This document shows, in pieces, positions 8,590 to 24,863 of a DNA stretch of 64,000 bases. The notes beneath the pieces were generated by a model. It worked only from the letters and a program-made list of their open reading frames with translations. It was not told the DNA's origin and made no database searches. The DNA comes from Myxococcaceae bacterium (lineage in GTDB: Bacteria; Myxococcota_A; UBA9160). The position numbers and the translations under genes are program-made. Position 1 is the stretch's first letter, and each line of letters begins with the position of its first letter. Location of the stretch: contig CAJPFO010000058.1 in NCBI GenBank assembly GCA_905339255.1, positions 1 through 64,000 on the forward strand, given 5' to 3'.

Positions 8590-9378
8590 ATGGACGAAGT
8601 CCTGATCGAGATCGATTCGCACGTCGCGACGCTCACGCTGAACCGTCCCGACCGCCTGAACGCGATCACCCCGGCGATGCTCGATCGGCTCTCGGAGCTG
8701 CTGCTGCGGTGCGACGCCGATGGCGACGTACGCGTCATCGTACTGACCGGCGCCGGGCGGGGTTTTTGCGCAGGGCTCGATTTGAAGGACCTCGCGGCCG
8801 GCAAGAACATCGGCTCCGATGCTTCGATGGGGATCGGGCGATTCGATCTCCGGAGCGCACCGCCGATCGTCCTCCACCAGGTCGACAAGCCGACGATCTG
8901 TGCGCTCAACGGAGCAGCCGCCGGATACGGGATGGATCTTGCGCTCGGCTGCGACGTTCGCGTCGCGTCGTCGAGCGCGAAGCTCGCGGCGGCGTTCACG
9001 AAGCGCGGCGTGCTTCCGGAGAGTGGCGGTACCTGGCTCCTTCCGCGACTCGTCGGTTGGGCGAAGGCCTGCGAAATCGCCTTCACGGGGCAGACGCTCG
9101 ACGCGAACGCATGTCTCGCGCTCGGACTCGTGAACCGCGTCGTCGAGGACCCGGAGCTCGCTCGTTCGGTTCGCGACCTCGCAGTCGAGATGGCGTCGAA
9201 CGCCCCGCTCGCCGTCCAGGCCACCAAGAGGATGATGCGGCTCGGCCTCGAGGAGAGCTTCGAGGCGAACGTGCACCACGTCTTCCTGCAGCTCTTGCCG
9301 CTCTTCCGCTCGAAGGATTTCGGTGAAGGAGTTCGCGCCTACCTCGAGCGCCGGCCCCCGAGGTTCGAGGGACGCTGA
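8590..9378 (+). CDS. Enoyl-CoA hydratase/isomerase-family protein
   Basis: A 262-residue crotonase-fold protein. The oxyanion-hole segments are visible: AGRGFCAGLDLKDL near residue 56 and NGAAAGYGMDLALGCD near residue 103. The second catalytic acid (LPESGGTWLLPRLVG) is conserved. At the first Glu position of classical hydratases there is an Asp (GYGMDLA), so dehydration/hydration chemistry is uncertain and an isomerase or other crotonase activity is possible. A GGAGG ribosome site sits just before the ATG. The gene end overlaps the convergent cheB end by 40 bases. Confidence 0.85.
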   Translation: MDEVLIEIDSHVATLTLNRPDRLNAITPAMLDRLSELLLRCDADGDVRVIVLTGAGRGFCAGLDLKDLAAGKNIGSDASMGIGRFDLRSAPPIVLHQVDKPTICALNGAAAGYGMDLALGCDVRVASSSAKLAAAFTKRGVLPESGGTWLLPRLVGWAKACEIAFTGQTLDANACLALGLVNRVVEDPELARSVRDLAVEMASNAPLAVQATKRMMRLGLEESFEANVHHVFLQLLPLFRSKDFGEGVRAYLERRPPRFEGR

Positions 9379-10532
9379 GGGTTCGGACCCGGGCCCCCGA
9401 CCACCGAGAGACGCGGCGGCGCGTCTGCGTCGGACGGCCCTCGCCGTCCATTTCGCCGCACCGACGCAACGATGGCTCCAGGAATCCTCTCGAGCGGCAG
9501 CACCATTGCTGCGGCCCCACGCGCGATCGCTTCACGAGGCATTCCGAACACGACGCAGGTTTCGGCATCCTGCGCGAGCGTCCAGGCGCCGGCTCGTCGC
9601 ATCGCGAGTAGCCCTTCTGCGCCGTCAGCGCCCATGCCGGTCAGCTCGACCCCCACGGCGTGCGGTCCCGCCGCTCTCGCGACCGAGCGGAACAGGACGT
9701 CGACGGACGGTCGATGACCGCCGATTCTCGGCCCTTCGAGGACGCTCACCGAGAAGCGTCCGCCGGTCCGTAGCACGACGACGTGCCGGTCCCCAGGCGC
9801 GACGAGAGCATGTCCGTCGAGAATGGCGTCGCCGTCGGCGGCTTCGCGGACGCGGATCTCCGACACCGAGTCGAGGTGACGAGCGAGCGCACCGGTGAAC
9901 GCGGCCGGCATGTGCTGGGCGATCACGATCCCGGGGCCATCGGCCGGCAGGGCGCGAAGCAGGGTCGTGAGGGCCTCGGGCCCTCCCGTCGAGGCTCCGA
10001 TCGCGACGACGAAGTGGCTTCCGCGCCGAGCGGCGCTCTCGGCGTGCGGTGGTCCGCGCCGGAGGGGAAGCTGCGGCGTCGATTTCCGCTTCGCCACGCG
10101 AGCGAGCGCCGCGGCACGAATCGTCCGCAGCAGGTCTCGGGTCCACTCGGACCGGAGTGCCCCGTCTCGCCAGCGCGGCTTCTCGAGGATCTCGACCGCT
10201 CCGTCGGCGAGCGCCCGGAGTGCGGCTTCGGTTCCGGGCGCGGCCACGGCGGAGCAGACGACGGTCGGGATCGGATGCTCGGCCATGAGGCGCCGCAGGA
10301 ACGAGAGGCCGTCCATCCGAGGCATCTCGAGGTCGAGCAGGATCACGTCCGGCGCCGTCTGCTCGATCTTCGTGGCCGCGATCACCGGATCCGCGGCGAG
10401 CACCACTTCGATCGTCGGATCGGATCCGAGCGCCATCGCGATGAGCCGCCGCGCCACGGCCGAATCGTCGACGACGAGCACGCGCGGGCCGCCGCGTACG
10501 GGCGGCCTCAATCGTCGAGGAGCTTCTTCCAC
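9339..10532 (-). CDS. cheB: Chemotaxis response regulator/protein-glutamate methylesterase CheB
   Basis: A 397-residue two-domain enzyme that demethylates or deamidates receptors. The receiver has Asp67 in VILLDLEMPRMDG and Lys in EILEKPR. The methylesterase has Ser181 (AIGASTGG), His207 (AQHMPAAFTG) and Asp303 (GMGADGAEG). About 40 residues after the catalytic domain are low complexity and unusual. It is the last gene of the chemosensory operon. The GTG at 10532 gives the longest product; a TTG at 10511, overlapping the cheR stop as TTGA, is an alternative start. The C-terminal coding end overlaps the convergent crotonase gene. Confidence 0.95.
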   Translation of the reverse strand: MEEAPRRLRPPVRGGPRVLVVDDSAVARRLIAMALGSDPTIEVVLAADPVIAATKIEQTAPDVILLDLEMPRMDGLSFLRRLMAEHPIPTVVCSAVAAPGTEAALRALADGAVEILEKPRWRDGALRSEWTRDLLRTIRAAALARVAKRKSTPQLPLRRGPPHAESAARRGSHFVVAIGASTGGPEALTTLLRALPADGPGIVIAQHMPAAFTGALARHLDSVSEIRVREAADGDAILDGHALVAPGDRHVVVLRTGGRFSVSVLEGPRIGGHRPSVDVLFRSVARAAGPHAVGVELTGMGADGAEGLLAMRRAGAWTLAQDAETCVVFGMPREAIARGAAAMVLPLERIPGAIVASVRRNGRRGPSDADAPPRLSVVGGPGPNPQRPSNLGGRRSR

Positions 10533-11413
10533 GCGAACACGCTCGGACCGACGCTGCGCAGGGGCTGCTCACGACCCTGGAGTGCCTCGGAGTGACCGAG
10601 GAGGAGAAGCCCCTCCGGGTCGAGGACTCTCAGGAGACGCTGGAGCGCCCCACGCTTGTGCGTTGGCTCGAAGTAGATCAGGACGTTGCGACAGAGCACG
10701 AGATCGAAGATCCCGAGCCTCGGGTCCAGATCGCGAGCGAGATTGAGACGCTCGAAGCGGAGGGTCGCCCGGACCTCCGAGCTGGCGCGCATGCGCCCGG
10801 CCTGACGGCCGATCCCGCGACGCATGAAGCGATGAAGATGGTGGCCGGGGATCTGCACCGCCTTGTCGAGGCTGAACGTCGCGGATCGCGCCTGACGAAG
10901 CACACGGGTCGAGAGATCCGACGCGAGGATCTCGATCTCGAAGCCCTCGCTCCGCGGAAAGTGGGAGAGCAGGCTCATCGCCATCGAGACCGGCTCCTCG
11001 CCGGTCGAGCAGCCCGCGCTCCAGGCCCGGATCCTGCGCGGTCGCCGACCCTTCGAAGCATCCTCTCTCCAGCGCGGGAAGACGCGGGTCTCGAGGAACG
11101 CGAACTGCGACGGCTCCCGGAAGAACGACGTCTCGTTCGTCGTCAGCCGATCGAGCATGACGATCGCCTCGTTCGGATCGTCGATCACGCGCCGGTAGTA
11201 GGCGCTGAACGAGGGCATTTCGAGCTCTCGCAGCCTCTGGTTGAGTCGGCTGGCGAGAAGTGCGCGCTTGGTGTCGGCGAGCTGGATCCCGGCCTCGCGC
11301 TCGACCAGCGACTGGAAGAGCCGGAACTCCGCGTCGAGGAGCCCCGGAACCGGGCGTACCCCGATCGACGCGCTCGCGGAACGTGCGGCTGCCGCGTGTT
11401 GGCGAGCCGTCAT
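10508..11413 (-). CDS. cheR: Chemotaxis protein methyltransferase CheR
   Basis: A 301-residue SAM-dependent methyltransferase that methylates receptor glutamates. The N-terminal helical domain (VEREAGIQL, SRLNQRLRELEM, LTTNETSFFRE) is followed by the SAM-binding core (AWSAGCSTGEEPVS) and LCRNVLIYFEP. The ATG at 11413 overlaps the cheW stop as ATGA, indicating translational coupling, and gives the normal family N terminus. It pairs with CheB to set the methylation state of the MCP encoded in the same operon. Confidence 0.95.
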   Translation of the reverse strand: MTARQHAAAARSASASIGVRPVPGLLDAEFRLFQSLVEREAGIQLADTKRALLASRLNQRLRELEMPSFSAYYRRVIDDPNEAIVMLDRLTTNETSFFREPSQFAFLETRVFPRWREDASKGRRPRRIRAWSAGCSTGEEPVSMAMSLLSHFPRSEGFEIEILASDLSTRVLRQARSATFSLDKAVQIPGHHLHRFMRRGIGRQAGRMRASSEVRATLRFERLNLARDLDPRLGIFDLVLCRNVLIYFEPTHKRGALQRLLRVLDPEGLLLLGHSEALQGREQPLRSVGPSVFAWKKLLDD

Positions 11414-12042
11414 TGCGCCACACGACTCCGTTTCCGACTCCCGCTGCGGCGCGGCAGGGCCACGGACGCTGGAGTCGCAACCTCGGACGCTCCCGGATCG
11501 GGATCGGTCGGAAGCGGATCGGATTCCGCCGGCTGCAAGGCAGGGTCGGACGTCTGCGTCGGGATCGCCTCGAGAGATCCGAAGCCGGTACCTGCGAGCA
11601 CCTCGCGGACGTTCAGGAGCGGGACGAAATCCCCGTCGAGCCGCACCATGCCATCGAGAAGAGCGTGTGGGACGTCGGTTCCGAACCGCGGCGCGGGCTC
11701 GATCTCCTCGGGGCGCACCGAGATCACGTTGTTCACGCCGTCTGCCAGGATGCCGACGACCGTCGCGTCGCCGTCGACCACCACCTCGAGGACGATCACG
11801 CACGAACGACGCCCGGGAGGCTCTTCGGGGAGGCCGAAGCCTCGCGCCAGGCTCACCACGGGAACGGCTCCCCCGCGCAGGTTGAGCAGGCCGAGCACTG
11901 CGTCCGGGGTCCGCGGAAGCTGCGTGATCGTCGTGAACGGAACGATCTCCTTCACGTCGAGGATCCGGATCGCATGCTGCTGGTCGCAGACCCGGAACGT
12001 CAGGACCTGGAACGACTCATCGAGGTCTTCATCGGGTTCCAC
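11410..12042 (-). CDS. cheW: Chemotaxis adaptor CheW with a basic disordered tail
   Basis: The protein has 210 residues. The first ~150 form a CheW domain (FRVCDQQHAIRILDVKEIVP, LGLLNLRGGAVPVVSLARGFG) that couples CheA to receptors. The last ~55 residues are Pro/Asp-rich and then Arg/Ser-rich, longer than usual for CheW and predicted disordered. A strong AAGGAGG lies 6 bases before the GTG at 12042, which supports this start. It is 21 bases downstream of the MCP stop and overlaps the cheR start. Confidence 0.93.
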   Translation of the reverse strand: MEPDEDLDESFQVLTFRVCDQQHAIRILDVKEIVPFTTITQLPRTPDAVLGLLNLRGGAVPVVSLARGFGLPEEPPGRRSCVIVLEVVVDGDATVVGILADGVNNVISVRPEEIEPAPRFGTDVPHALLDGMVRLDGDFVPLLNVREVLAGTGFGSLEAIPTQTSDPALQPAESDPLPTDPDPGASEVATPASVALPRRSGSRKRSRVAQ

Positions 12043-12063
12043 GCGGTGCCTCCTTGCGCGTGC

Positions 12064-13692
12064 TCAGAATTGGACGAAATCGCTCTCGGAATCGACGGCC
12101 TCGCCGTCGCCGGCATCGAGCCCCGACGACCTGCCGCGTTCTGCGGGTCCGCCCGAGGCCCAACCCGACGTCGTTCCGGCGGCGAGCGGCGTCGAACCCG
12201 ACCGGAGGTGCGCGCCCAGCCGGAAGAATGCGATGAGCTGGCGAAGCCGCTGTGCCTGGACGGCCTGTTGTTCGGCCGTGCTCGAAAGCTCTTCGGCCGC
12301 AGAAGCGTTGCGCTGCGTGACCTGATCGACCTGCCCCATCGCCTGACCGATTTGCGCGATCCCCGATGCCTGCTCGCGGGACGCCGCGGCCACCTCCTGG
12401 ACGAGCTCCGCGGTCCGTTGGATCGACGGAACGAGCTCGGCGAGAAGCTCACCCGACCGCGAAGCGACCTGGACGCTCGAAGCGGCCACGTCGCGAATCT
12501 CACGTGCGGCGGATTGACTTCGCTCGGCGAGCTTCCTCACCTCCGAAGCGACGACGGCGAACCCCTTGCCGTGTTCGCCGGCGCGTGCCGCCTCGATCGC
12601 CGCATTGAGCGCGAGCAAGTTGGTCTGGTATGCGATCTCCTCGACGATCGAGATCCGCTCGGCGATCGTCCCCATCGCCCGAATCGTCTCCTCGACCGCC
12701 TTTCCGCTCTCCTCGGCCCCGCTCGCTCCACGGCGGGCCATTTCCTCGAGCTCGAGGCTGTTCGACGCATTCTGCGTGATCGACGCGTTCATCTCCTCGA
12801 GGTTGGAGCGGGTTTCCTCGACCGCGGCCGCATGCTCGCTGGTTCCCTGCGAGAGCCCCTGCGCGGACGCGGCGACCTGATCCGCGGCCCCCGACAATCC
12901 TTCGGCGGCTTCGTGCACCGAACCGATCACCCGTCGCAGCTTCTCCACGAGCCGGCTCATCGCACCGAGCATCGAACCGAGCTCATCGTTCGAGGTGACC
13001 GCCACGTGTGAGGTGAGATCGCCGTCGGCGAGCGCCGTCGCAACGCGCGTCGCTTCTCGAAGCGGTTTGGAGATCGAGGACACGAGGAGGAGCGAGACTC
13101 CGAGGCAGATCCCGAGACCGATCGCGAGGACGGCTCCGACCGTCGCGAGCTGGGCTTTCTCGAGCGCGCGAACGTCGGCGAACGCGCTCTCGGATGCGGC
13201 CTGATCGCGCTTCGTCCGCTGCTCGAGCCGCTTCGAGATCTGGTCGCGCTCGCTGCGCAAGCGCTCGACGATCGGCGAGACCGAGTCGAATCCGGCCGCG
13301 CCGGTGATCCGTCCCTCCATCTGACCGAGGCCTTCGCCGTAGCGCTCGGAAGCCTCACGGAGCCCGGCGAGCTCGTCGATGTCCGCGTTCGGAAGCGTCG
13401 CTGCCTTGTCGAGCAATGCGCCAAAACGTGCCAGGTAGCGACGCGCCTCGACGATCGCGTCGCGATCGCGATTGGCACCGGAACGCTCGGCGGTCGCGTG
13501 CATCTCCCGCGCGACACTCGCCATCTCGAGGCCGACCAAGAACGACGGGTACGATTGTGTCTCGACGGTGTCCGCGGCCGTTTCCTTCCGCCCTTCGTAA
13601 TGAAGTGCGACGACCACGACGACCGCGAACACGGCCGCCATCAGTGCGGGCAACGCCAGCAGTCTCACTCGCAGGCTAAGATTGGAATGCAT
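12064..13692 (-). CDS. Transmembrane methyl-accepting chemotaxis protein with C-terminal tether motif
   Basis: A 542-residue receptor: TM1 at about residues 10-28, a helical periplasmic sensor (about 30-185), TM2 (about 188-210), a HAMP domain ([21 protein letters not shown]) and a signalling hairpin. The tip reads [20 protein letters not shown]. After the signalling domain there is a flexible Gly/Ser linker of about 55 residues ending in DFVQF, which fits the aromatic-x-x-aromatic pentapeptide used to tether CheR/CheB. The ATG at 13692 (M-H-S-N-L) is chosen because TM1 follows at once. It overlaps the cheA end by 17 bases. Ligand unknown. Confidence 0.93.
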
Positions 13693-15406
13693 GGCCGACC
13701 TCCACGGTGTCCGTCGAAACGAGCGCATGGTTGGACTCGGGTCCGAGAAGCTCCGCGTCACCGATGCCTCCGATCGCGCGATCGATGAGAGCGCGGACGT
13801 CGAGAATGAGGGCGATCCGGCCGTCTCCGAGGATCGTTGCGCCGCCGACCTCGGGAACGTTCCGGAGATGTCTCGGAAGGGGTTTGATCACGGTCTGGCG
13901 CTCGCCGAGGAGGCGATCGACCAGGAGGCCGAGTCGGCGCCCGGCATGCTCGACGACCACCACGCTTCCGCGGCTCGCCTCCGAGGAGGGCAGGCCGAGC
14001 ACGCGATCGAGCCGGACGTAGGGGAGCGGGCGGTCGCGGACACTCAAGAGCCCCGTGGCACCGCCGCGCGAATGACGTCCCTCCGTGGGGAGATCGAGGC
14101 ACTCGATCACCGACTCGAGAGGAAGAACGTATACCTGTCGCGCCGTGCCCACCGCGAAGCCCTCGATGATGGCGAGCGTGAGCGGCAGACGGAGCGTGGC
14201 GATCGTCCCCGCGCCGGGACGGCTCCGCAAACGAACCGTTCCACCGACGCTTTCGACGGTGCGGCGTACCGCGTCCATTCCGACGCCTCGGCCCGCGGCA
14301 TGGTCGGCCTCGTCGCGGGTCGAGAATCCCGGGTGGAAGACGAGTTCGAGGAGTTCGTTCGGGCCGAGGGCGGCCGCATCGGCGACGAGGCCGAGCGACG
14401 CGGCCCGCCGGCGAACGGCGTCGAGGTCGACCCCTCCGCCGTCGTCCTCGACCTCGACGACGATCTGGGCACCCTCCTGTCGCGCCGAGAGAACGACTCT
14501 CCCGCTCGCAGGCTTGCCCCGGGCCAGACGGGCCTCGGGCGCTTCGATTCCGTGCGCGAGTGCGTTGCGGATCACGTGGATGAGCGCTTCGCGGAGGTGT
14601 CCGATGACCGTCGTGTCGACCTCGGCGTCCTCGCCGCGGATCTCGAGGTGAGCACGCTTTCCGTGCGTGAGGGCGAGCTCTCGGACGGACCGCGCGTGCT
14701 GCCGGAAGACGGGTCCGAGCGGGACCATCCTCACGCGCATGACCTCCTCCTGGAGGCTCGCGAAGAGGTGGTCCATGGCGCGATGCGCCTCGAGGACCTC
14801 GGAGGAGGGCGCGCTGCGTCCATCGTGGAGCACCTGGTCGAGTCGCCCACGCGCGATCGAAAGCTCTCCTGCGAGGTTCATCAGTCGATCGAGCGTCTCG
14901 ACCCGGATCCGCAGCGTCGGAGCGGCGAGCCGGACCGAGTCTCCGATCGTCGTCGGGTTCGCGTCCGACCCGGTGAAGGCCGGCGCGGCGACACGATCGA
15001 CCGTTCGCTCCGGCCGCGGAGATCCGTGGTCGCCCCGCAGCGCCGCCAGGCATCGCCGGTGATCGTCGGAGAGCTCGTCGCGTCCCTCGAGAGTCGAGTC
15101 GAGGATCTCGCGCAGCGCGTCGACGGCTGCCAGAAGCAGGTTCGATTCGGATTCGCTGGGCCTTCGCTCCGCACGCCGGATCTCGCCGAGGACGTCTTCG
15201 AGGACGTGCGCGAACTCCGTGAGCGCAACGAACCCGAGCGAATCCGCGTCGCCCTTGATCGTGTGGCAGACGCGAAAGATCTCGTTCGTCCGCTCGGGGT
15301 CGAAGTCCCCGTTCTCGATTGCGAGTAGAGCCTCCTCCATCGTGACGAGACCATCGCGGGTCTGCGCCTCGAACGTCGTGAGGACCTGCTCGAGTTCGGC
15401 GTCCAT
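13676..15406 (-). CDS. cheA: Chemotaxis histidine kinase CheA lacking a P2 domain
   Basis: A 576-residue kinase. P1 carries the phosphorylation His48 ([15 protein letters not shown]). A short ~40-residue linker leads straight to the P3 dimerisation helix ([17 protein letters not shown]). The P4 ATPase follows ([32 protein letters not shown]), then the P5 CheW-like domain. No P2 CheY-docking domain fits in the linker, which is a real difference from enteric CheA. Eleven bases separate it from the cheD stop. It probably phosphorylates the two CheY-like proteins and CheB of the same operon. Confidence 0.95.
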
Positions 15407-15417
15407 GGTCTCGGTTC

Positions 15418-15933
15418 CTAGATGAGCTTGACCCAGGCCGTCCCGTCGTCCGGATGGAAGACGAGTTTGCGGCCGCGGTGCCCCCCGACGTCGGCCGCAA
15501 CGACGGCCACGCCGGCCTCGGCGAGCAACGCTCGAGCGGCATCGACATTGCGCCGGGCGAGCGGGTTCACGGATTGGAGCGCAGGGGCGATCGAAGCCCC
15601 GCCGAAAAGCTTCCCCCGGAGCCGCTCCGGCTTCGCTCCGAGCGAGACCGTTCGCTGGATCAACTCCGGCACCGCGAGGTTTCCGAAGCGGAGCGCCGAA
15701 GACCCGAAGCCGAGGCCGCGAGGCAACACGAAATGGCAGAGTCCCCCGACCCCCGCCTCCTCATCCCAGAGGCACGCTGCGACACACGAGCCGAGGATCG
15801 TGACGATCCGGACCTTCGTTCGAGACGTCATGATCTGCCCCGGATGGACGTAGAGCGTCGGCCGATCCGGCTCCTTGCTGGATGCGGATGAGGCCCGCCG
15901 AGCCGCCGAGGTTCTCGACGAAGGAAGACTCAT
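15418..15933 (-). CDS. cheD: Chemoreceptor glutamine deamidase CheD
   Basis: A 171-residue CheD. It contains the catalytic Thr/Cys pair in RIVTILGSCVAACLWDE and the His in GGLCHFVLPRG; the family deamidates receptor glutamines and can bind phospho-CheY. The C-terminal half (LFGGASIAP, GHRGRKLVFHPDDGTAW) also matches. The ATG at 15933 overlaps the stop of the upstream GAF gene as ATGA. The N-terminal ~30 residues before the conserved core are low complexity. Confidence 0.92.
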   Translation of the reverse strand: MSLPSSRTSAARRASSASSKEPDRPTLYVHPGQIMTSRTKVRIVTILGSCVAACLWDEEAGVGGLCHFVLPRGLGFGSSALRFGNLAVPELIQRTVSLGAKPERLRGKLFGGASIAPALQSVNPLARRNVDAARALLAEAGVAVVAADVGGHRGRKLVFHPDDGTAWVKLI

Positions 15934-16682
15934 CTCCTGGGGCGGGCTTCGCACGCCCAGTGTCGTGCGTGCAGGCGCGCCGAATGGAGTGCCGTCGCGG
16001 CCTGTGTCGCGAGGAGATCGAAGATCTCGAAGTCGATCCGTTCGAGCCCGGGCTTTTGCTCGAGAAGCCCGAAGATGGCGATGGCGCCGGTCGCTTCGCC
16101 CTCGATCAGAAGGGGGATGCAGACCCGGGGGCCGCTCGAAGGCTCGTCGTCGAGGCGTCGATCGCCGTCGTCTGCGACGAAGCGCTCACCGGATTCGATC
16201 ACGCTCCGGATCCGATCCTCTGCTGCGTCGATCGCGTTCCCATCGACTCCGAGTGCAGAGAGGACGCGGAAGGAGTCGCCCTCCGCCTCGAGGATCGCGA
16301 ACTCCTCGGAACCAATCAGATTGACCACGATCTCGTGGATCGCACGCACCACCTCGGCCGGCTCGAGCGTTCCATGGAGCCGGTACGCCGAGACGTAGAG
16401 GTTGGCGAGGCTATCGTTCTCCTGCTCGACCGAGAGATAGCGCTCGAACGCGGAAGCGTTTTCCTCGGCAATGTTCGCCGCGTGGAGCTGGAGCGACGAA
16501 GCCCGCTCGAGAGCCGCGCGGGCGGCGCCGAGCTCGAGGGACAGGCGCGTCTTCTCTTCTTCGAGGGATGCGACCGCACCGCGGAGGGTCTCGATCTCCT
16601 GGAGCCGCTCCTCGATGAAGCGGCGCGTGCCCTGGCGGACCCTCCGCACGTAGTCTGCAGGATCGTGGACGTCGCTGGCCAT
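15930..16682 (-). CDS. Coiled-coil GAF-domain protein of the chemosensory operon (paralogue 2)
   Basis: A 250-residue cytoplasmic protein. Residues about 20-95 form a heptad-rich coiled coil (IEERLQEIETLRGAVASLEE). It is followed by YLSVEQENDSLANLYVSAYR and a GAF domain (about 100-245; IVVNLIGSEEFAILEAEGDS, VCIPLLIEGEATGAIAIFG). GAF domains bind small ligands or cofactors or act as dimerisation modules. It is clearly related to the protein at 18560-19378, sharing the 'EQEN-SLA-LYV' junction and INLIG/VNLIG core, so the two arose by duplication. It overlaps cheD. Ligand unknown. Confidence 0.85.
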   Translation of the reverse strand: MASDVHDPADYVRRVRQGTRRFIEERLQEIETLRGAVASLEEEKTRLSLELGAARAALERASSLQLHAANIAEENASAFERYLSVEQENDSLANLYVSAYRLHGTLEPAEVVRAIHEIVVNLIGSEEFAILEAEGDSFRVLSALGVDGNAIDAAEDRIRSVIESGERFVADDGDRRLDDEPSSGPRVCIPLLIEGEATGAIAIFGLLEQKPGLERIDFEIFDLLATQAATALHSARLHARHWACEARPRR

Positions 16683-16695
16683 GAAAACCTCGTGG

Positions 16696-17085
16696 CTACT
16701 CGATCAGACTTCGGATCTTGGCGATGAGCTCGACGCCGTTGAGCGGCTTGGTCACGTAATCGCTGCAGCCGCTCGCGAACCCCGTCTCGACGTGCTCTGC
16801 ATCCCCTCGAGTCGTCACCAGGATGATCGGGATCTCGTGGGTCGCGGCCTCGTCGCGGAGCGCCTGACATGCGTCGAATCCACCCATTTCCGGCATCACC
16901 ACGTCGAGGAGGATGAGGTCGGGTCGAGCCTCGCGCGCGACCGAAACGGCCTCTCGCCCGTTTCGCGCGTAGAGGAGCTCGAAGCTCCCGGCACGCTGGA
17001 GGATCATCCGCTCGGTCATCAGCGCGACCTCGGAGTCATCCACGAGCAGGATTCGCTTGCGACGGCGGCGAGCGGGTTCGGGCAT
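16696..17085 (-). CDS. CheY-like single-domain response regulator (first of two)
   Basis: A 129-residue receiver with a basic N-terminal extension (PARRRRKR). The phospho-acceptor Asp61 lies in DLILLDVVMPEMGG. The acidic pair DD, the Thr in IILVTTRG and the Lys in SDYVTKPLNG are all present, so it should be phosphorylatable. No output domain. The ATG at 17085 follows the upstream stop by 7 bases. It is a likely CheA target; with the second CheY-like gene it could act as output plus phosphate sink. Confidence 0.92.
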   Translation of the reverse strand: MPEPARRRRKRILLVDDSEVALMTERMILQRAGSFELLYARNGREAVSVAREARPDLILLDVVMPEMGGFDACQALRDEAATHEIPIILVTTRGDAEHVETGFASGCSDYVTKPLNGVELIAKIRSLIE

Positions 17086-17092
17086 TCCAGGT

Positions 17093-17395
17093 TCAGCGCC
17101 CGAGTCTCTGGAAGACCGCGTCCGCACCGTCGGGGCCCGCCGAATCGCGCAGGCGCCCGAGCGCCGCACCGACGATGGCGCATGCCGCGTCCGCCTCGGC
17201 GACGCCTCGCGCCTTGAGCTCCTTCGGGAGGATCTGCTTCACCACGATCCCCATTTGAGAAGCCGTGACGGTCTTCGGATCGAGCCCCGACTTCTTGAGC
17301 GCGATCCGAACGGTTCCGTTCGCGGCGAGGTGGTCGAAGCCCGTCGCGCGAGCGAGGGCCTCCGTCACGCATTCGAATGCAGCAGCGTCCGCCAT
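17093..17395 (-). CDS. Small cytoplasmic protein of unknown function in the che operon
   Basis: A 100-residue protein I cannot assign to a family. It is predicted helical and soluble, with the central stretch GTVRIALKKSGLDPKTVTA, then MGIVVKQILPKELKARGV, then ADAACAIVGAALGRL. There is no membrane segment and no cysteine-based site. The ATG at 17395 is two bases after the stop of the seven-helix membrane gene and 7 bases separate its stop from the next start, so it is clearly a member of the chemosensory operon. An adaptor between the membrane protein and the receivers is one possibility, by position only. Confidence 0.8.
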   Translation of the reverse strand: MADAAAFECVTEALARATGFDHLAANGTVRIALKKSGLDPKTVTASQMGIVVKQILPKELKARGVAEADAACAIVGAALGRLRDSAGPDGADAVFQRLGR

Positions 17396-17397
17396 GG

Positions 17398-18159
17398 TCA
17401 GGCCTCCACCGTCGCCGGGCGCCGAGCACCGGCGACCCACGCCAGGTACGACTGCGGCGGCATGAAGATCAGGAACAGGAGCAGGCTCTGGAGCAGCCCG
17501 TTCATCGACGTCACCGTCACCGTCATCGGGTTCTGTGCGGCGCCGCCGGCCGTCGAGACGACGGTCACGTTCACCAGCGTCGCGGCCGAAGCAACGATCC
17601 CTGCGATCGCCCAGAGCAGGAACCGGTTCGCCGTGATCGGGTCACCGATCCCGAGAGCGAAGCGCCGCCTCATCATCCGGTAGTAGCGGAGGCCCTCTCC
17701 ACCCATCCATGCGTATCCGAGGCCGAGGACGAGCATGTTCGTCAGGCTGAACGAAAAGCTCCGCCGCATCATGTCGGCGCGGTCGACTCCGTACCACGCC
17801 CACAGGAGCCCAGCGAGATCGACGGCGATCACGACGCAGCCGGCGATCGCGAGGAGGCGCGCCCAGAGAGCCCCGGGACGGAAGACGAGGGCGGTGAACA
17901 CGAAGAACCCGCCGATTCCGAAGGTGATGCACAGGTTCCCGAAGTGGTGCAGGAACGTGGCGAGAAGCAAGTGCGTTTCGAAGAGTCTTCCCCCCGCGAC
18001 GACCATCGGAAATCCGATGCCGCACGCGGAGAAGTAGACCATTCCGAGCAGCCGCTCCGGGGTCTTCCCGGTCTCGATCGAGAGCCGGATCAAGCGGAGC
18101 CCGACCACGATGGCCGTGAGCGAGAAGAGCGAGACACAGACGAGAGAGAGGATCGACAT
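17398..18159 (-). CDS. Seven-helix integral membrane protein embedded in the che operon
   Basis: A 253-residue protein of unknown family. Seven hydrophobic segments are visible at about residues 3-24, 38-58, 63-90, 98-120, 134-152, 177-202 and 213-240, joined by short loops with Arg-rich cytoplasmic turns (MMRRRFALG). Helix 3 has a His-His pair (TFLHHFGNL). Helix 7 has no Lys, which argues against a rhodopsin. It lies between two CheY-like genes with 1-2 base gaps, so it should be made with the kinase complex. A signal-sensing or output role at the inner membrane is inference. Confidence 0.85.
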   Translation of the reverse strand: MSILSLVCVSLFSLTAIVVGLRLIRLSIETGKTPERLLGMVYFSACGIGFPMVVAGGRLFETHLLLATFLHHFGNLCITFGIGGFFVFTALVFRPGALWARLLAIAGCVVIAVDLAGLLWAWYGVDRADMMRRSFSFSLTNMLVLGLGYAWMGGEGLRYYRMMRRRFALGIGDPITANRFLLWAIAGIVASAATLVNVTVVSTAGGAAQNPMTVTVTSMNGLLQSLLLFLIFMPPQSYLAWVAGARRPATVEA

Positions 18160-18160
18160 T

Positions 18161-18538
18161 TCAGTTCACCTTCAGCAATGCGTTCACGACGCGGAGGACC
18201 TGGTTGGGTTGTACGGGCTTCGTCACGTAGTCGTCGGCACCGAGCTGGATCGCGCGGTCGCGGTCGGCACTCGCGCCCTCGGTGGTGACGACGACGATCG
18301 GAAGCCCCTGGAAATCGCGGTTCTTGCGGACGAGTTCGATGAGCGTGAAGCCGTCCATGATCGGCATGTTGATGTCGACGAGCGCGAGATCGAAGGAGTC
18401 GGCCGAGAGCTTCTTGAGGGCGTCCATGCCGTCGGTCGCTTCGACGAGCTCGAAGGTCCGCTGGCGTCTGAGCGCCATCGAGAGCAACAGCCGCATCGTC
18501 GGACTGTCGTCGACGACGAGGATTCGGAGTTTTTGCAT
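18161..18538 (-). CDS. CheY-like single-domain response regulator (second of two)
   Basis: A 125-residue receiver. It has the acidic pair in VVDDSPTMR, phospho-acceptor Asp55 (LALVDINMPIMDG), Thr-Thr in VVVTTEGAS and Lys in DDYVTKPVQP, so it is intact. No output domain. It is one base upstream of the seven-helix membrane gene and 21 bases downstream of a GAF gene. Its sequence differs enough from the receiver at 16696-17085 that the two probably have different partners. Confidence 0.93.
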   Translation of the reverse strand: MQKLRILVVDDSPTMRLLLSMALRRQRTFELVEATDGMDALKKLSADSFDLALVDINMPIMDGFTLIELVRKNRDFQGLPIVVVTTEGASADRDRAIQLGADDYVTKPVQPNQVLRVVNALLKVN

Positions 18539-18559
18539 CGTGGCTCCTTCTCTCGTTTC

Positions 18560-19378
18560 TCATTTCGTCAGGAGCTGAAGGAGCCCCTGCATCGTGTTCC
18601 GCTTGCGCTCGGACTGGGCATAGAGCCGTGCAGAGAAGATCGCGGTGGCTGCGTGACCCGCGAGCAGATTGAAGAGCTCGTGATCGAGCGGCGTGAAGCA
18701 ATCCTTCTGCTGCAGCAGGTTGTAGATCGCGATGGCGCCGAGGGGCCGGTCCTCGATTCGAAGAGGGATGCAGACGATCGGAGCCGACGGGTCCTCCGAG
18801 GCGGTGGCGTCGCGACACGTCGCGCCGCGAGCCAGCGCCGCGCCGCCGAGGATCCCCTGGCCGAGCGGGATTCGGACGAGCCCTTCGGCCGGTTCGCCCT
18901 CCGAAGCGACCGGCTCGAGAATTCCGGTCTTGTCGTCGACGAGGTAGACCACGAATCGTTCGGCACCGATCAGGTTGATGACGATCTCGACGACGATCCG
19001 GAGCACCTCTTCGAGGTCGAGGGTCGAATGGAGCTGGAAGCTCGCGACGTAGAGGCTCGCGAGGCTGTTGTTCTCCTGTTCGACCTCGACCTGCCTGCGT
19101 GCGAATTCCTCGTTCTCGTGTTCGAGCTCCTCGAGACGCGAGAGCGTTTCCTTCCGTTCCCCTTCGAGCCCTTCGATCCGATGGAGCAGATCGCGCCGGT
19201 GGCGTTCCCAATCGGCCGGGTCGCGCGCGGCGAGTCGCGTCTGCTGTTGCATCTGGAGCAGGCGGCGGCGGAGATGGGCGTTCTCGTGGACGAGCTCGCG
19301 GGTGAGCTCGGCACCCTTCGTGAAGAGGGTGAGAAACTCCTCCGCCCTCGTCTGGAGCGGGCGCTCGGGATCACTCAT
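18560..19378 (-). CDS. Coiled-coil GAF-domain protein of the chemosensory operon (paralogue 1)
   Basis: A 272-residue cytoplasmic protein. A long coiled coil (about residues 15-105; ELEHENEEFARRQVEVEQEN) leads to a GAF domain (about 110-262; IVINLIGAERFVVYLVDDK, IPLGQGILGGAA, VCIPLRIEDRPLGAIAIYN). The segment GQGILGGAALARG resembles ligand-accessible GAF loops. It is a paralogue of the protein at 15930-16682. The ATG at 19378 overlaps the upstream stop as ATGA. Likely a soluble sensor feeding the Che complex; the ligand is unknown. Confidence 0.85.
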   Translation of the reverse strand: MSDPERPLQTRAEEFLTLFTKGAELTRELVHENAHLRRRLLQMQQQTRLAARDPADWERHRRDLLHRIEGLEGERKETLSRLEELEHENEEFARRQVEVEQENNSLASLYVASFQLHSTLDLEEVLRIVVEIVINLIGAERFVVYLVDDKTGILEPVASEGEPAEGLVRIPLGQGILGGAALARGATCRDATASEDPSAPIVCIPLRIEDRPLGAIAIYNLLQQKDCFTPLDHELFNLLAGHAATAIFSARLYAQSERKRNTMQGLLQLLTK

Positions 19379-20073
19379 CGAGGATCCGTCCCACGGCGCC
19401 GCGCAGTGATCCGTTCCGCCACGGCGCAGCGGACCGCATCGGAGACGAAATCGCGTTGCGTCGTCGCGACCTCGGGGACGCGGCGACGAAGGGCCTCGCG
19501 CCCCCGATCGAGGTCGGCGCGGATCGCGGACATCACCTCCGCCTCGGATCGGGCGCGGTCGAGGAGGGCGCCGTGGTCCATGAGCAGATCCGACGCGAAG
19601 ACGCGGGCCAGCCGCTCGGCCGTTCGGATGGCGGGATCGATCGCCGCTTGCGCCGGGAGGGGAGCCGAGGATGGCAGCGCGGTGCAGGTCGGGATTCCCA
19701 GACGTTCGAGCGCGTCGCCGAGCCCTTCGGGGAGCGAGGATCGGTCGAGAGAGATCTCGGCGCCGTAGAGGGACTCGGCGGGGCGACGATAGCGATCGGG
19801 ACGATGGGCGGCCGTCACGAGGATCGTGCGGATCGATCGAAGAGCGGGCTCGCGCGCGATGCACGTCAGGATCTCGAACCCGTAGAGCCCGGCAAGAGCG
19901 GCGTCGACGACGGCCACTCGAGGTCGACTCGAGCGGATCTCGCGGAGGGCCTCGTGGCCGTCGTGGGCGAGTAGCGCGGCGAGTCCGTGATCGCCGAGCC
20001 AGCGCCCGCAAGTCCGCGCGACATCGGGGTCGGGCAGGGCCACCAGGACGAGCGGGGTCGAAGGGCCGTTCAT
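19375..20073 (-). CDS. Degenerate receiver protein with C-terminal helical domain
   Basis: A 232-residue protein. Residues 6-120 have receiver-like layout, with the acceptor Asp57 kept (VAVVDAALAG) and the Thr in ILVTAAH. The first acidic pair is altered (ALPDPD) and the conserved Lys is missing (AEISLDRSS). Residues about 150-232 form a helical region (ERLARVFASDLLM, then DLDRGREALRRRVPEV) like the C-terminal extension of some delta-proteobacterial response regulators. Phosphorylation is doubtful. It lies 90 bases downstream of the PATAN gene and overlaps the GAF gene. Confidence 0.8.
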   Translation of the reverse strand: MNGPSTPLVLVALPDPDVARTCGRWLGDHGLAALLAHDGHEALREIRSSRPRVAVVDAALAGLYGFEILTCIAREPALRSIRTILVTAAHRPDRYRRPAESLYGAEISLDRSSLPEGLGDALERLGIPTCTALPSSAPLPAQAAIDPAIRTAERLARVFASDLLMDHGALLDRARSEAEVMSAIRADLDRGREALRRRVPEVATTQRDFVSDAVRCAVAERITARRRGTDPR

Positions 20074-20163
20074 GGGGAGCGCATCCTAACGGGTCCGATG
20101 CCGGCACGAGGGCTCGCGCGAGTGGATCGACACCGACCGATGTTGGCTTGAGCGAGACACGCT

Positions 20164-21948
20164 TCACTCCGTTGCAGCTCGACCGTGAACCGGAAGTTCT
20201 TCGACGGGAGCGACGCCTTCGCGCTCCATCAAGAACTCGGCCTCGTAGACCAGGATCTCGAGAGCGGTGGTGTCGCCGATCCGATCGTGGGACGGGTGGC
20301 GGTCTCCGTAGAGGATCGCGAGCACGCGGCCCTTGCTGTGGATCGGGGCGAGGTACGCCTCGGAAGGGCGGACTCCGCCGAGCGCGCGGAGGAGGTCGTC
20401 GTCACTCGCATCGCTCGGCGCCGCCTTGATGGGCGCATCGCGGTCGAGAACCTGCCGGAACAGTGCCGGTCCGCGGAGTGGAATCCGGATCCTGCGGAGC
20501 GCGGAATCCGACGGACCGCCGGCCGCCTCCATTCCGAGTTGGGCGAGGCCGACGACCTCTTCGCCGCGGAGCTGGAAGAGCGCGACGCGGGAGAACAGGG
20601 ACGCTGCGAAGCGGAGCAGGTGATCGAGGACGATCGGACGCGACGCCGGATCGTGCAGCAGCGCAGTCGTCCGACGGAGCCTCTCGAGGCCGCCACTCGG
20701 GAGTTGCGCGGCGATGGCCTGGAGGCTCGTCGCCTTCGAAGCGCGGGCGCTCGCCGCCCGGATGCTCCCGACCAGGGTGCGCGTCTCGTCGTCATTCCCG
20801 ACGACGTGCCGGTCGGCTCCGGGGATCCGTTGCGGTCGCGGCAAGCGGTCGGCGACGGGTGCAAGGGTCGAGAGCGTGTCGTCGTCCGGATCATCGGCGA
20901 AGAGCAGGATGACGATCCGTGGGCACAGAGAGGAGAGGCGCCGAACGACTTCGGAGACCCCTCCGCGCTGGATCGTCGGATCGATCGGCATGCGCTCGTA
21001 GAGGAGGACGACCGGAACCTCTCCTCGCGAAAGATACTGGCGGATGCGGGTCATCCCGAGCTCGAGCCGCTGGAAGATGTGCACGCGCTCGAACTCCGAT
21101 CCGAGCGTGGTCTTCACCCATTCGAGGACCGAGAGCTCGGGATCGAGGACGACGATCGGAGGGATCGCGCCGACGGCGGCCAACGGATGGTGCGTCGGCA
21201 GCGGGGTCACCCAGGTGAGCGTGGGATCGTCGGCTTCAGCCTCCGATCCGAGATCGGGAGCTTCTTCCGTCGCGTCGAGGTCGAGGTTCGCATCGTCGAG
21301 TGAGTCGAGAGGGGGAGCGGGCGCGAGAGCATTCTCGACGCCATCGAGGTCGGCGAACGACGCGTCGAGATCGGCGTCTTCGGCCCCGGCATCCGGCGCG
21401 AGCGGGTCTTCGGCGCCTCGGCCTCGAGCGGAGGAGCCGACGGGAGCGGAGCGGCTTCGCTCGTCCGCAGCTCGGGCGCCTTCCATCGCCAGGTACTGTG
21501 CATTGAGCGGAGTCGCGAGGAGGAGACTCGGCTCGAAGTCCGCCTCGGGGGCTTCGTGGACGATGAAGCTGAACTCCCCGGCACGCCATGCGAAGAGCGA
21601 AACGATCGTCGACTCCGCGTCGCGGCGGCGAAGCTCCTCGAGCGTTGCAGGGTCGAGTCCATTGCCCCGCTCGATCGGCAGGCCCTCGACCGGTTGCTCC
21701 GGGCGCGCGGCGCTCCCGACGATCTCGTCGAGATCGCGTGCCGAGACCATTTCAGCCTGCAGTGCGAGTTCTGCGAGATTGGCTGCGCCGAGCGCACGGT
21801 GGACGCCATGGATCTGGCCGTCACGAAGTACGACTCGCGCCTCGTCGCCGGCGAGACGGAGGGTGAGAACGCCGGTCTTTCGCGAGAGGCCGATGATCTG
21901 GAGGATGTCCTCGAGCGCGAGATCCTCGAGGTTGCCGGTCAGACTCAT
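20164..21948 (-). CDS. PATAN/DUF4388 - pseudo-receiver - GAF-like regulator, first gene of the che operon
   Basis: A 594-residue protein. The N-terminal PATAN (DUF4388) domain covers about residues 1-165 (SLTGNLEDLALEDILQIIG, GVLTLRL, VVLRDGQIHGV). A strongly acidic, low-complexity linker follows (about 175-240). A receiver-like domain (about 250-370) has Tyr where the acceptor Asp should be (VVLLYERMP). The C terminus is GAF-like (about 410-575). PATAN domains join CheY domains in cyanobacterial phototaxis regulators that act on pilus motors. The ATG at 21948 gives the canonical PATAN start. As the most upstream gene it may be the output of this system; that is inference. Confidence 0.85.
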   Translation of the reverse strand: MSLTGNLEDLALEDILQIIGLSRKTGVLTLRLAGDEARVVLRDGQIHGVHRALGAANLAELALQAEMVSARDLDEIVGSAARPEQPVEGLPIERGNGLDPATLEELRRRDAESTIVSLFAWRAGEFSFIVHEAPEADFEPSLLLATPLNAQYLAMEGARAADERSRSAPVGSSARGRGAEDPLAPDAGAEDADLDASFADLDGVENALAPAPPLDSLDDANLDLDATEEAPDLGSEAEADDPTLTWVTPLPTHHPLAAVGAIPPIVVLDPELSVLEWVKTTLGSEFERVHIFQRLELGMTRIRQYLSRGEVPVVLLYERMPIDPTIQRGGVSEVVRRLSSLCPRIVILLFADDPDDDTLSTLAPVADRLPRPQRIPGADRHVVGNDDETRTLVGSIRAASARASKATSLQAIAAQLPSGGLERLRRTTALLHDPASRPIVLDHLLRFAASLFSRVALFQLRGEEVVGLAQLGMEAAGGPSDSALRRIRIPLRGPALFRQVLDRDAPIKAAPSDASDDDLLRALGGVRPSEAYLAPIHSKGRVLAILYGDRHPSHDRIGDTTALEILVYEAEFLMEREGVAPVEELPVHGRAATE

Positions 21949-22237: not shown

Positions 22238-22990
22238 CTATCGAGCCCGCTGCCGGAGCCAGAGCGCTTCGAGGTCACGAACCATGCTCTGCAGTTCCGG
22301 CGGCGGATCGAGACTCGCGTCCCTCAAGACCTCGGGAAAGAAGACGGCGAGCCTGCGTTCGTAGCGGCGGCGAAGCTCCGCGCGCAGACGGACACGGTCG
22401 CGTCCGCGGCGCAGCAAGACCTCGAGCTTCGTGTGCGGCGGGATCTCGGTGTCTTGCCAGACCTCGATCAGCATTCCGATGAGGCTCAGGTTGAGCGCGA
22501 TCACGTTCTCGATCGGCTCGCCATCGACGAGAAGCTCGATCTCTAGATCGGCGGGTTTGAGGATCGGAACACGGAATGCCATCCGCGGATCCCCCGCGGC
22601 GATCTCACCCGGGATCCGCAGCAGAAGCTCGAGGGCACCGCCGGACATCTCGCCAGGTCGGACGGCAAGAAGCGTTGCGATGAACACACGATTGCGTTGT
22701 CCGAAGCGGCACGAAATGCTGCACTGGCTCGGAGGCCGGAGCCGCGGTGGAAGGTCGCCTTCGACCACCACCCGGAACACCTCGTCGCCGAGCTCGACGA
22801 AGCGCACCTTGCAGACCGCTTCGTCGTCGAACGAGAGCGCGAGCGCATCGGCGTTCGCGTCGCAGAGCCGCGCGAGGACGTGACGAACGTCGTCGTCGCT
22901 CGCGACCGAGCCTCCGGTCTCGACGTGGTCCGTCCACTCGGCGGGCTGGGCCGCGCTGCGCGAGACGAGATTCCAGAGGCGACTGGCCAT
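22238..22990 (-). CDS. PilZ-like cyclic-di-GMP-binding-type protein
   Basis: A 250-residue two-domain protein. The N-terminal half resembles a YcgR-type flagellar-brake/PilZN fold (GDEVFRVVVEGDLPPRL, CSISCRFGQRNRVFIA). The C-terminal half resembles PilZ (MAFRVPILKPADLEIEL, NLSLIGMLIEV, RAELRRRYERRLAVFF). The usual RxxxR and D/NxSxxG ligand motifs are only partly kept (FRVP; NLSLIG), so c-di-GMP binding is uncertain. The ATG at 22990 is chosen as the first start before folded sequence. It lies upstream of, and points the same way as, the chemosensory operon, with a 289-base gap between. Confidence 0.65.
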   Translation of the reverse strand: MASRLWNLVSRSAAQPAEWTDHVETGGSVASDDDVRHVLARLCDANADALALSFDDEAVCKVRFVELGDEVFRVVVEGDLPPRLRPPSQCSISCRFGQRNRVFIATLLAVRPGEMSGGALELLLRIPGEIAAGDPRMAFRVPILKPADLEIELLVDGEPIENVIALNLSLIGMLIEVWQDTEIPPHTKLEVLLRRGRDRVRLRAELRRRYERRLAVFFPEVLRDASLDPPPELQSMVRDLEALWLRQRAR

Positions 22991-23212: not shown

Positions 23213-23989
23213 ATGGTGAGCATCTATGCATCGGGACTCTTTGCCGCGGCCGTACTGGTCGGCGTCGTCTGCATGCTCGAGGCCGGGCGCGGCCTCCGTC
23301 GTCGCCAGGAAGCGCGCCGCGACGACGCCATCGGGAGCGGCTTCGGAGCGGTCGAGGGTGCCGTCTTCGCCTTGATGGGGCTCCTCGTCGCCTTCACCTT
23401 CTCGGGGGCCGCCTCGCGTTTCGATGCGAGGCGCTCGCTCGTCGTCGAGGAGGCAAACGACATCGGAACGGCGTACCTGCGCGTCGATCTCGTCCCCGCC
23501 ACCTCGCAGCCCCGGATCCGGGAGCTGTTTCGTCGCTACGTGGACGTGCGCCTCGAGACCTACGCACACTTCACGAATCGAGAAGAGGCGCTCGCGATCC
23601 ATGCGAAGGCCACGGCGCTGCAGCGCGATCTCTGGGATGGCGCGGTGGTGGCGACCTCGGGTGCCGACGCAGGGCCGGCGCGCATGCTCCTGCTTCCCGC
23701 CGTGAACGAAATGTTCGACATCGCGAACACGCGGATCGCCGCAACGTACATGCACCCGCCCGCAGTGATCTTTGCGCTTCTCGGGACGCTCGCCCTCGCG
23801 TCTGCACTCTTGGCCGGCTACGGAATGGCTTCGGAAGCCGGACGGAGCTGGCTTCATTCGATCGGCTTCGCGCTCGCGCTCGCCGTGAGCGTGTACGTGA
23901 TCCTCGACCTCGAGTACGCGCGCGTCGGCTTCATCCGGGTCGACGATTTCGATCGCTTCCTTCGCGAGGTCCGAGCGTCGATGGGTTGA
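23213..23989 (+). CDS. DUF4239-type (bestrophin-like) membrane protein
   Basis: A 258-residue protein. There are hydrophobic segments near residues 5-22 and 43-60, a long soluble middle (about 75-170) and two further segments near 180-200 and 213-230. The fragment GFGAVEGAVFALMGLLVAFTFSGAASRFDARR with VEEANDIGTAYLR is characteristic of DUF4239/bestrophin-like proteins. Its role is unknown; an ion channel or membrane scaffold has been suggested for the family fold. GGAGGAGG precedes the ATG at 23213, fixing the start. Its 3' end overlaps the convergent methyltransferase gene by 59 bases. Confidence 0.8.
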   Translation: MVSIYASGLFAAAVLVGVVCMLEAGRGLRRRQEARRDDAIGSGFGAVEGAVFALMGLLVAFTFSGAASRFDARRSLVVEEANDIGTAYLRVDLVPATSQPRIRELFRRYVDVRLETYAHFTNREEALAIHAKATALQRDLWDGAVVATSGADAGPARMLLLPAVNEMFDIANTRIAATYMHPPAVIFALLGTLALASALLAGYGMASEAGRSWLHSIGFALALAVSVYVILDLEYARVGFIRVDDFDRFLREVRASMG

Positions 23990-24863
23990 GGCGCTCGAAG
24001 GCGATCCCGTGCTCCTCGGGGAGTCTCGTGCGCATCACCTCGATCGCGGCGGGACTCTCGTCGACGAGCAGGAAGCGACGGCCGAGCTCGAGGCACGCGA
24101 CTCCCGTCGTGCCACTTCCCGCGAAGGGATCGAGAACCCACGCGCCCGGCGCGGACGACGCCGAGACGATCCGCCGGAGGATTCCGAGTGGCTTCTGCGC
24201 CGGATAGCCCGTCCGCTCGTTCCCGGCGGTCGGAACGATGGTATGCCACCAGACGTCGGTCGGAAGCTTGCCTCGCGCCACCTTCTCGGCCGAGACGAGC
24301 CCCGGAGCCATGTAGGGGATCCGCTCGACGGCCTCGGCATCGAAGAAGTGACGTCCGGGTTCACGGACATAGACGAGGATCGTGTCGTGCTTCGCGGGCC
24401 AGCGATCCTTTGGCCGGCCACCGTAGTCGTACGCCCAGACGATCTCGTTCAGGAACGCCTCGGGCCCGAAGATGTGATCGAGAAGGAGCTTCGTCGCGTG
24501 CGCCTCGCGGAAGTCGAGGTGCAGATAGAGCGACCCGTGAGGAGCGAGCACGCGACGGATCTCCGAGATCCGCGGCTCGAGGAACCCGGCGTAGTCGTCG
24601 AAGCGGTCGTCGAAGCCTCTCGTTTCGCCCATGACCGTCCGGTAACGGCGGCCTCCGAAGCCGGTGCGGTCGCCGTCCGCAGACCGCGTCGTCCGGAGCC
24701 TCGCGGATGCCCGGCGGCGCCCCGTGTTGAACGGAGGATCGGCGTAGACCAGATCGATGCAGCCGTCCGGAAGCGAGCGGAGAAGCTCGAGGTTGTCGCC
24801 CTCGACCACGCGACCCCGTGCGCTCGCTCCACTCGCCCACCCGCTCTCGAGTCGATCCGTCAC
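23931..24863 (-). CDS. Site-specific DNA methyltransferase (beta-type N6-adenine or N4-cytosine), apparently solitary
   Basis: A 310-residue protein with the amino-methyltransferase catalytic motif DPPFNTG near residue 42. The SAM motif DPFAGSGTTG lies near the C terminus. That order (motif IV first, motif I last) is the beta class. The section between carries the target-recognition region (IVWAYDYGGRPKDRWPAKHD). No restriction endonuclease gene is adjacent. The GTG at 24863 overlaps the nupC stop as GTGA, so it is the last gene of the ntrBC-thiE-nupC operon. It may be a regulatory orphan enzyme. The recognition sequence is unknown. Confidence 0.88.
   Translation of the reverse strand: MTDRLESGWASGASARGRVVEGDNLELLRSLPDGCIDLVYADPPFNTGRRRASARLRTTRSADGDRTGFGGRRYRTVMGETRGFDDRFDDYAGFLEPRISEIRRVLAPHGSLYLHLDFREAHATKLLLDHIFGPEAFLNEIVWAYDYGGRPKDRWPAKHDTILVYVREPGRHFFDAEAVERIPYMAPGLVSAEKVARGKLPTDVWWHTIVPTAGNERTGYPAQKPLGILRRIVSASSAPGAWVLDPFAGSGTTGVACLELGRRFLLVDESPAAIEVMRTRLPEEHGIAFERLNPSTLGPREGSDRNRRPG

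Follow-up and report, generated by a model that had tools for sequence, protein, structure and literature searches.

How does a chemosensory operon come to join a complete set of core genes to accessory genes that fit no described class? The question is raised by a 64,000-nucleotide stretch of DNA, here called the window, which comprises positions 1 to 64,000 of contig CAJPFO010000058.1 (C58) of a Myxococcaceae bacterium (assembly GCA_905339255.1, denoted G000 below), a draft metagenome assembly of 4.28 Mb in 335 contigs that is about 90% complete. Between positions 21948 and 9339, the window carries 14 intact genes, all on the minus strand, as reported in a preliminary description of this DNA that was made from the sequence alone. 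We find that the operon consists of three modules, denoted A, B and C, rather than representing one unnamed Che class. In our view, it is probably a merger of two chemosensory systems, in which the kinase of a rare stand-alone system (module B) took over the outputs of the system resident in the order (module A), with the core of the resident system being lost.

The cluster itself is well defined. Gene identities are concordant between a gene caller based on codon usage and ribosome-binding sites, Pfam and NCBIfam, and the GC content at third codon positions is coding-like in all 14 genes (0.79-0.89). With refined starts (the likeliest start of CheD is at 15933, in an ATGA overlap with the preceding gene, and that of CheY2 at 17085), the intergenic gaps are, in operon order, 90, -4, 21, 1, 2, 7, 13, -4, 11, -17, 21, -4 and -25 bp; 12 of the 13 are 21 bp or shorter, and terminator-like sites within the operon show no excess over chance. 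This spacing supports the earlier notion that the genes act as one compact unit. As judged by inspection of the sequences, the usual catalytic residues are present in CheA, CheB, CheD, CheY and CheY2.

The provenance of the modules was traced by searching for CheA and for three of the accessory proteins (GAF1, TM7 and U100, introduced below) in 98 related genomes and inspecting the 20-kb neighborhoods. Most genomes of the order possess a resident chemosensory operon with the layout DUF4388-CheY-CheA (~700 aa)-CheW-CheW-MCP (~850 aa)-zinc-ribbon receiver-HEAT-CheR-CheB-GAF1-CheY-(second MCP)-lptE-holA (e.g., loci L034-L041), where MCP stands for methyl-accepting chemotaxis protein. Module A of the window consists of accessory genes of this resident operon, and the order PATAN-receiver-GAF1-CheY is common to both. 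Specifically, the module comprises a protein with a DUF4388/PATAN domain, a pseudo-receiver and a weak GAF domain (20164..21948; Pfam DUF4388, expectation value (E) 2e-20; GAF_2, E 0.009), a degenerate receiver (19375..20073; Response_reg, E 1e-7), the coiled-coil and GAF protein GAF1 (18560..19378), and the CheY paired with GAF1 (18161..18538). The first of these aligns along its entire length, at 35-37% identity, with the first protein of the resident operon in three relatives (G012, G008 and G002); GAF1 has 50-62% identical orthologues in most genomes of the order; and CheY groups with the CheY encoded after GAF1 in relatives (57-61% identity), not with CheY2 or with the first CheY of the resident operon. 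The degenerate receiver lacks the N-terminal zinc ribbon of its counterpart in relatives; it retains one aspartate, with the acidic pair and the lysine missing. Absent from the window operon are the resident 700-aa CheA, both CheWs, the 850-aa MCP, the HEAT protein, the resident CheR and CheB, the first CheY and the lptE-holA flank. The four module A genes are thus, in relatives, linked to a CheA different from that of the window: in 28 of the 46 listed GAF1 places, GAF1 and the 700-aa CheA share a contig, at a distance of 7-10 kb.

Module B, in contrast to this set of accessory genes, is a complete chemosensory system, CheY2-GAF2-CheD-CheA-MCP-CheW-CheR-CheB, known otherwise as a rare stand-alone operon. 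It is made up of CheY2 (16696..17085; 51-58% identical to CheY2 of the stand-alone operons), the coiled-coil and GAF protein GAF2 (15930..16682; GAF_3, E 3e-10), CheD (15418..15933; Pfam CheD, E 4e-22), the 576-aa CheA (13676..15406; Pfam domains Hpt, H-kinase_dim, HATPase_c and CheW, with no match for P2), the MCP (12064..13692; Pfam HAMP and MCPsignal), CheW (11410..12042; Pfam CheW, E 2e-31), CheR (10508..11413; Pfam CheR, E 4e-50) and CheB (9339..10532; CheB_methylest, E 2e-62, and Response_reg). Full-length relatives of the window CheA are confined, the window's own included, to 3 of 80 order genomes and to 5 of 379 sampled Myxococcota, the other four being G010, G014, G088 and G371. In G014, the gene order is that of the window, with 44-55% identity for most genes and about 40% for GAF2 and CheW; the G010 version lacks CheD, and those of G088 and G371 are rearranged. 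Module B stands alone in G014, G010 and G088, all three with GAF2, and G014 and G010 carry the resident operon as well, on contigs separate from module B. Hence, the association of GAF2 and CheY2 with the CheA of the window, implied by the preliminary description, holds, but only within a stand-alone operon. A plasmid search for a source of module B outside Myxococcota yielded no CheA with more than about 40% identity. Two neighborhoods of the stand-alone operons deserve mention. In G088, a haem-NO-binding (HNOB/H-NOX) gene (L044:12659-13180) is divergent to CheY2, a possible nitric oxide input; upstream of module B in G014, there are genes for a REC-GGDEF protein, a TMEM220-like protein and a GAF-like fragment (L043:3441-5668), which hints at an output through cyclic di-GMP (c-di-GMP).

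The features of the receptor and of its methyltransferase allow module B to be compared with known classes. When aligned to the 36H receptor Tsr, the window MCP shows two symmetric 7-residue gaps, one on each arm, and, since a heptad is thus missing from either arm, it is 34H-like. It ends with the pentapeptide DFVQF (DFTNF in G010 and DFTRF in G371), which conforms to the CheR-binding pattern xZxxZ, where Z is F, W or Y (PMC7390727), and the pentapeptide-type loop of the window CheR can be aligned without gaps to the loop with which Salmonella CheR (1af7/1bc5) binds the pentapeptide, and is unlike that of PaCheR1. The F8 cluster of P. syringae (cluster II) likewise combines a 34H receptor, a C-terminal pentapeptide and a matching CheR (PMC11253619); by these features, rather than by a class hidden Markov model, module B looks F8-like. 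It differs from the F8 systems in having GAF2 beside CheY2 and in the lack of a flagellum.

What, then, became of the core of the resident system? The entire G000 assembly contains only three places with a CheW domain, namely the window CheW, the window CheA and the CheA of a third chemosensory system on another contig (C151), and only two MCPs; the resident CheA, CheWs and MCPs are therefore absent from the assembly. GAF1 is present there in a single copy. In the congener G001, the native site of the operon lies on an unbroken contig (L166, C293, 6372-8707) and holds the four genes found upstream of the operon in G002, followed by the zinc-ribbon receiver, lptE and holA; every other resident Che gene is gone from this site, and G001 has no GAF1. 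The third chemosensory cluster is conserved in the order (L140, L142, L138, L054), with the gene order Lon protease-AIRS-like protein-MCP (~430-450 aa)-CheW-(CheY)-CheA, and its CheA is split or frame-shifted in several genomes.

A number of observations weigh against the merger reading. The merged operon is known from one genome only, out of the 80 of the order. Because the lptE-bearing contig of G000 ends inside lptE, the native site is unseen in this genome, which itself is only about 90% complete. Both facts would suit the alternative that the resident operon survives in the unassembled part, with the module A genes of the window being diverged duplicates of four genes of that operon. We consider this improbable: the assembly contains no piece of the old CheA, CheW or MCP, GAF1 is there only once, and in G001 the operon has been lost from a contig without breaks.

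Further points, of which some support and others weaken the merger reading, concern the origin of module A. The GAF1 tree pairs the window protein with its counterpart from G002, a member of the same family (support 93/86), but on a branch five times longer than the G002 one (0.91 versus 0.18), whereas the HolA branches of the two genomes are alike (0.53 versus 0.64). The approximately unbiased (AU) test does not reject a placement of the G000 GAF1 outside the clade of the order (p 0.27), and G000 has very long branches in the trees of CheY (2.2, where the median is 0.07), the receiver and the PATAN protein. A claim of clear vertical descent of module A was accordingly abandoned, given the weak tree support and the AU result. 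This AU result and the long branches, together with the lack of GAF1 in the congener and a GC content of the cluster slightly below that of the genome, favor lateral arrival of the 14-gene set, or of its module A half, from outside the order, in which case module A would be a distant homologue and not a remnant. This alternative is the most serious of those considered and is still unlikely, given that GAF1 keeps 95 of the 103 columns conserved in the order and is placed with its own family, that the tetranucleotide profile of the cluster matches that of the genome at 0.96, tying the cluster to G000, and that the gene order is that of the resident operon minus genes. Of 78 CheY columns that are nearly invariant elsewhere (conservation of at least 90%), the window CheY is altered at 16, with the active site kept; other genomes show 0-2 changes at these columns, except for G010 (14) and G003 (10). 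Under the merger reading, the divergence of GAF1 and CheY, as judged from these comparisons, would be in keeping with inherited proteins having adapted to a different kinase, without being proof of it.

Between modules A and B, exactly at their junction, lies cassette C, which consists of TM7, a seven-helix membrane protein of 253 aa (17398..18159), and U100, its helical partner of 100 aa (17093..17395). Neither matches any Pfam, NCBIfam or PADLOC family. Such a seam, in a draft metagenome assembly of 335 contigs, calls to mind an assembly or binning chimera of unrelated contigs; this is very hard to reconcile with gaps of 1, 2 and 7 bp and intact frames across both junctions, with a composition that matches the genome, and with the absence of a repeat at the junction, which follows from the cassette being single-copy in G000.

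TM7 and U100 form a paralogous two-gene family, whose named loci come from metagenome-assembled genomes of Myxococcota/'Deltaproteobacteria', UBA9160 included. TM7 adjoins U100 in 34 of the 58 named U100 loci, in either order and with nearly all gaps between -4 and +14 bp. While G000 has one copy of each, G071 (MAG.188, L084-L121) has the maximum of 27 TM7 and 23 U100 genes, a lineage-specific expansion that is in part in tandem (L112, L121). U100 occurs without TM7 in the other 24 loci (L076, L080, L087 and L097 among them), and in three loci a 297-aa gene (an M48-type peptidase in L087) is found some 200-240 bp downstream of a solo U100. An apparent TM7-U100 fusion in L067 was discarded, the long open reading frame being an over-extended gene call. 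Pairwise distances of TM7 and U100 are correlated (r 0.44 for 43 pairs; r 0.53 for 14 paralogue pairs from one genome; both p 0.0002), and therefore the cassette duplicates and diverges as a unit.

The neighborhoods of this family speak against the view put forward in the preliminary description, namely that the operon is a coherent, unnamed Che class with eight accessory genes. The tight spacing and the single strand would be expected under this view, and the gene set indeed is not that of a described class. However, at 57 of the 58 named loci, no cheA is present within up to 10 kb on each side of the cassette, and the only cheA seen near it encodes a different CheA, about 8 kb away and on the opposite strand, so that the seven-helix and 100-residue genes are not linked to cheA elsewhere, an outcome that the preliminary description had itself named as refuting its view. 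The extra genes as a whole come from three different contexts, and none of the 98 relatives otherwise has the set; a coherent class of co-evolved parts is thus extremely improbable.

The structural models of the cassette proteins provide some clues to their role. The AlphaFold2 model of TM7 shows seven long helices (mean confidence, pLDDT, 93), and that of U100 an all-helical small bundle (pLDDT 85). U100 has no fold match in the PDB, where a sequence search gave only weak, histone-like noise. For TM7, there are no sequence matches in the PDB and no matches on plasmids, and the 7TMR-DISM and 7TMR-HD domains of Pfam had no match in any of the 18 members examined. The best 50 Foldseek matches of TM7 are almost all G-protein-coupled receptors (GPCRs), such as PTH1R, with a probability of 1.00 but E of 0.02-0.16 and a TM score of 0.58; since E is at least 0.02, the TM score is only about 0.58, and GPCRs dominate the seven-helix entries, the likeness is one of shape only. 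All 39 TM7 members are predicted to have the N-terminus outside and the C-terminus inside, with a mean of 14.4 arginines and lysines on the inner and 2.9 on the outer side. Entropy amounts to 1.91 bits for the inner half, against 2.80 bits for the outer one (p 4e-16), and the inner side holds 24 of the 25 most conserved positions. A loop of TM7, R166-W183, is likewise conserved. In its seven helices, its predicted orientation and its conserved cytoplasmic face, the TM7 model resembles the GPCR fold; in contrast to GPCRs, TM7 is bacterial, shows no sequence similarity to them, and is paired with a 100-aa helical protein, with no G protein. A conserved cytoplasmic face combined with a variable outer one is what would be expected of related receptors that share an intracellular partner, and, going by the models, cassette C may comprise a GPCR-shaped receptor and its cytoplasmic partner. 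As a speculation, which we regard as rather doubtful in its entirety, TM7/U100 could be a lineage-specific family of bacterial receptors of GPCR-like shape, in which the variable outer half reads different signals and the conserved inner face acts via the dedicated U100, and of which one member, in the window operon, feeds a chemosensory phosphorelay with a second input besides that of the MCP.

What the merged system controls can be approached from the gene content of the genome. FliM has no match in G000 and, in other genomes of the order, at most weak matches near the cut-off, which bears out the earlier suggestion that there is no flagellar output. The operon includes no pilus gene; PilM, encoded on another contig of G000 (E 3e-75), makes type IV pili likely in this organism. 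Cyanobacterial PATAN-CheY proteins affect the pilus motors or may contact other parts of the pilus machinery (PMC7690835). Given that the order has essentially no FliM but does have PilM, and given this precedent, type IV pili or surface matrix are the likeliest output, and are probably what the operon controls; that this assignment derives from absent flagella and family analogy is a further point to be set against the overall reading. The preliminary description omitted a PilZ/YcgR-like candidate gene (22238..22990, minus strand) that lies 289 bp upstream of the operon on the same strand, its association with the operon being uncertain. It has no Pfam or PDB match; by reading of the sequence, it contains the motifs RxxxR (RMAFR) and NxSxxG (NLSLIG), and the protein is a possible c-di-GMP receptor. 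With this gene upstream and the REC-GGDEF protein near module B of G014, a c-di-GMP output is possible too. Further upstream, there are genes for a bestrophin-like protein (23213-23989, plus strand) and an N6/N4 DNA methylase (23931-24809, minus strand), which overlap tail to tail.

The operation of the merged system can be envisaged as follows. Binding of a ligand at the MCP would control autophosphorylation of CheA, with methylation of the receptor tuned by CheR, tethered via DFVQF, and by CheB and CheD. CheA would then pass the phosphate to CheY2 and, presumably, also to the inherited CheY, which, when phosphorylated, would rely on its conserved coiled-coil neighbour GAF1, the PATAN protein and the degenerate receiver to influence type IV pili or the surface matrix. 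Module B would thus supply the receptor, kinase and adaptation, and module A the old output branch, whereas the TM7/U100 cassette, probably a membrane sensor with its cytoplasmic partner, would add a second input.

It is instructive to compare this scheme with other chemosensory systems. In the type IV pilus (Tfp) class, a 40H receptor goes together with the Chp/Pil gene set; the window operon differs from it in its 34H-like MCP and its different gene set, even though pilus genes (PilM) are present in the genome. The Che systems of M. xanthus (Frz, Dif, Che3-Che8; PMC3945109) are similar in being non-flagellar and in belonging to Myxococcota, and, among those tabulated in that source, none matches the window set by gene content. 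The closest precedent is provided by E. coli, the chemotaxis system of which is a chimera: the outputs of an F6 system came under the control of an F7 kinase, and the F6 system was then lost (PMC7184735). Both there and, under the merger reading, here, a kinase gains the output CheY of another system in the same cell, and the core of that other system disappears. In the present case, other classes and another phylum are involved, the output is not flagellar, several accessory proteins are kept besides CheY, and both halves reside in one compact operon.

If this reading is right, the operon would show that nature has, for a second time and independently, put the output genes of one chemosensory system under the kinase of another, with the seam visible in a single operon, the parent operons separate in relatives, and a congener that lacks the resident operon; the re-specification of CheA-CheY partners would then be directly testable. 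If anything here is new in kind, it could be the cassette, which gives access to an expanded family of seven-helix, receptor-like proteins in Myxococcota that has yet to be characterised.

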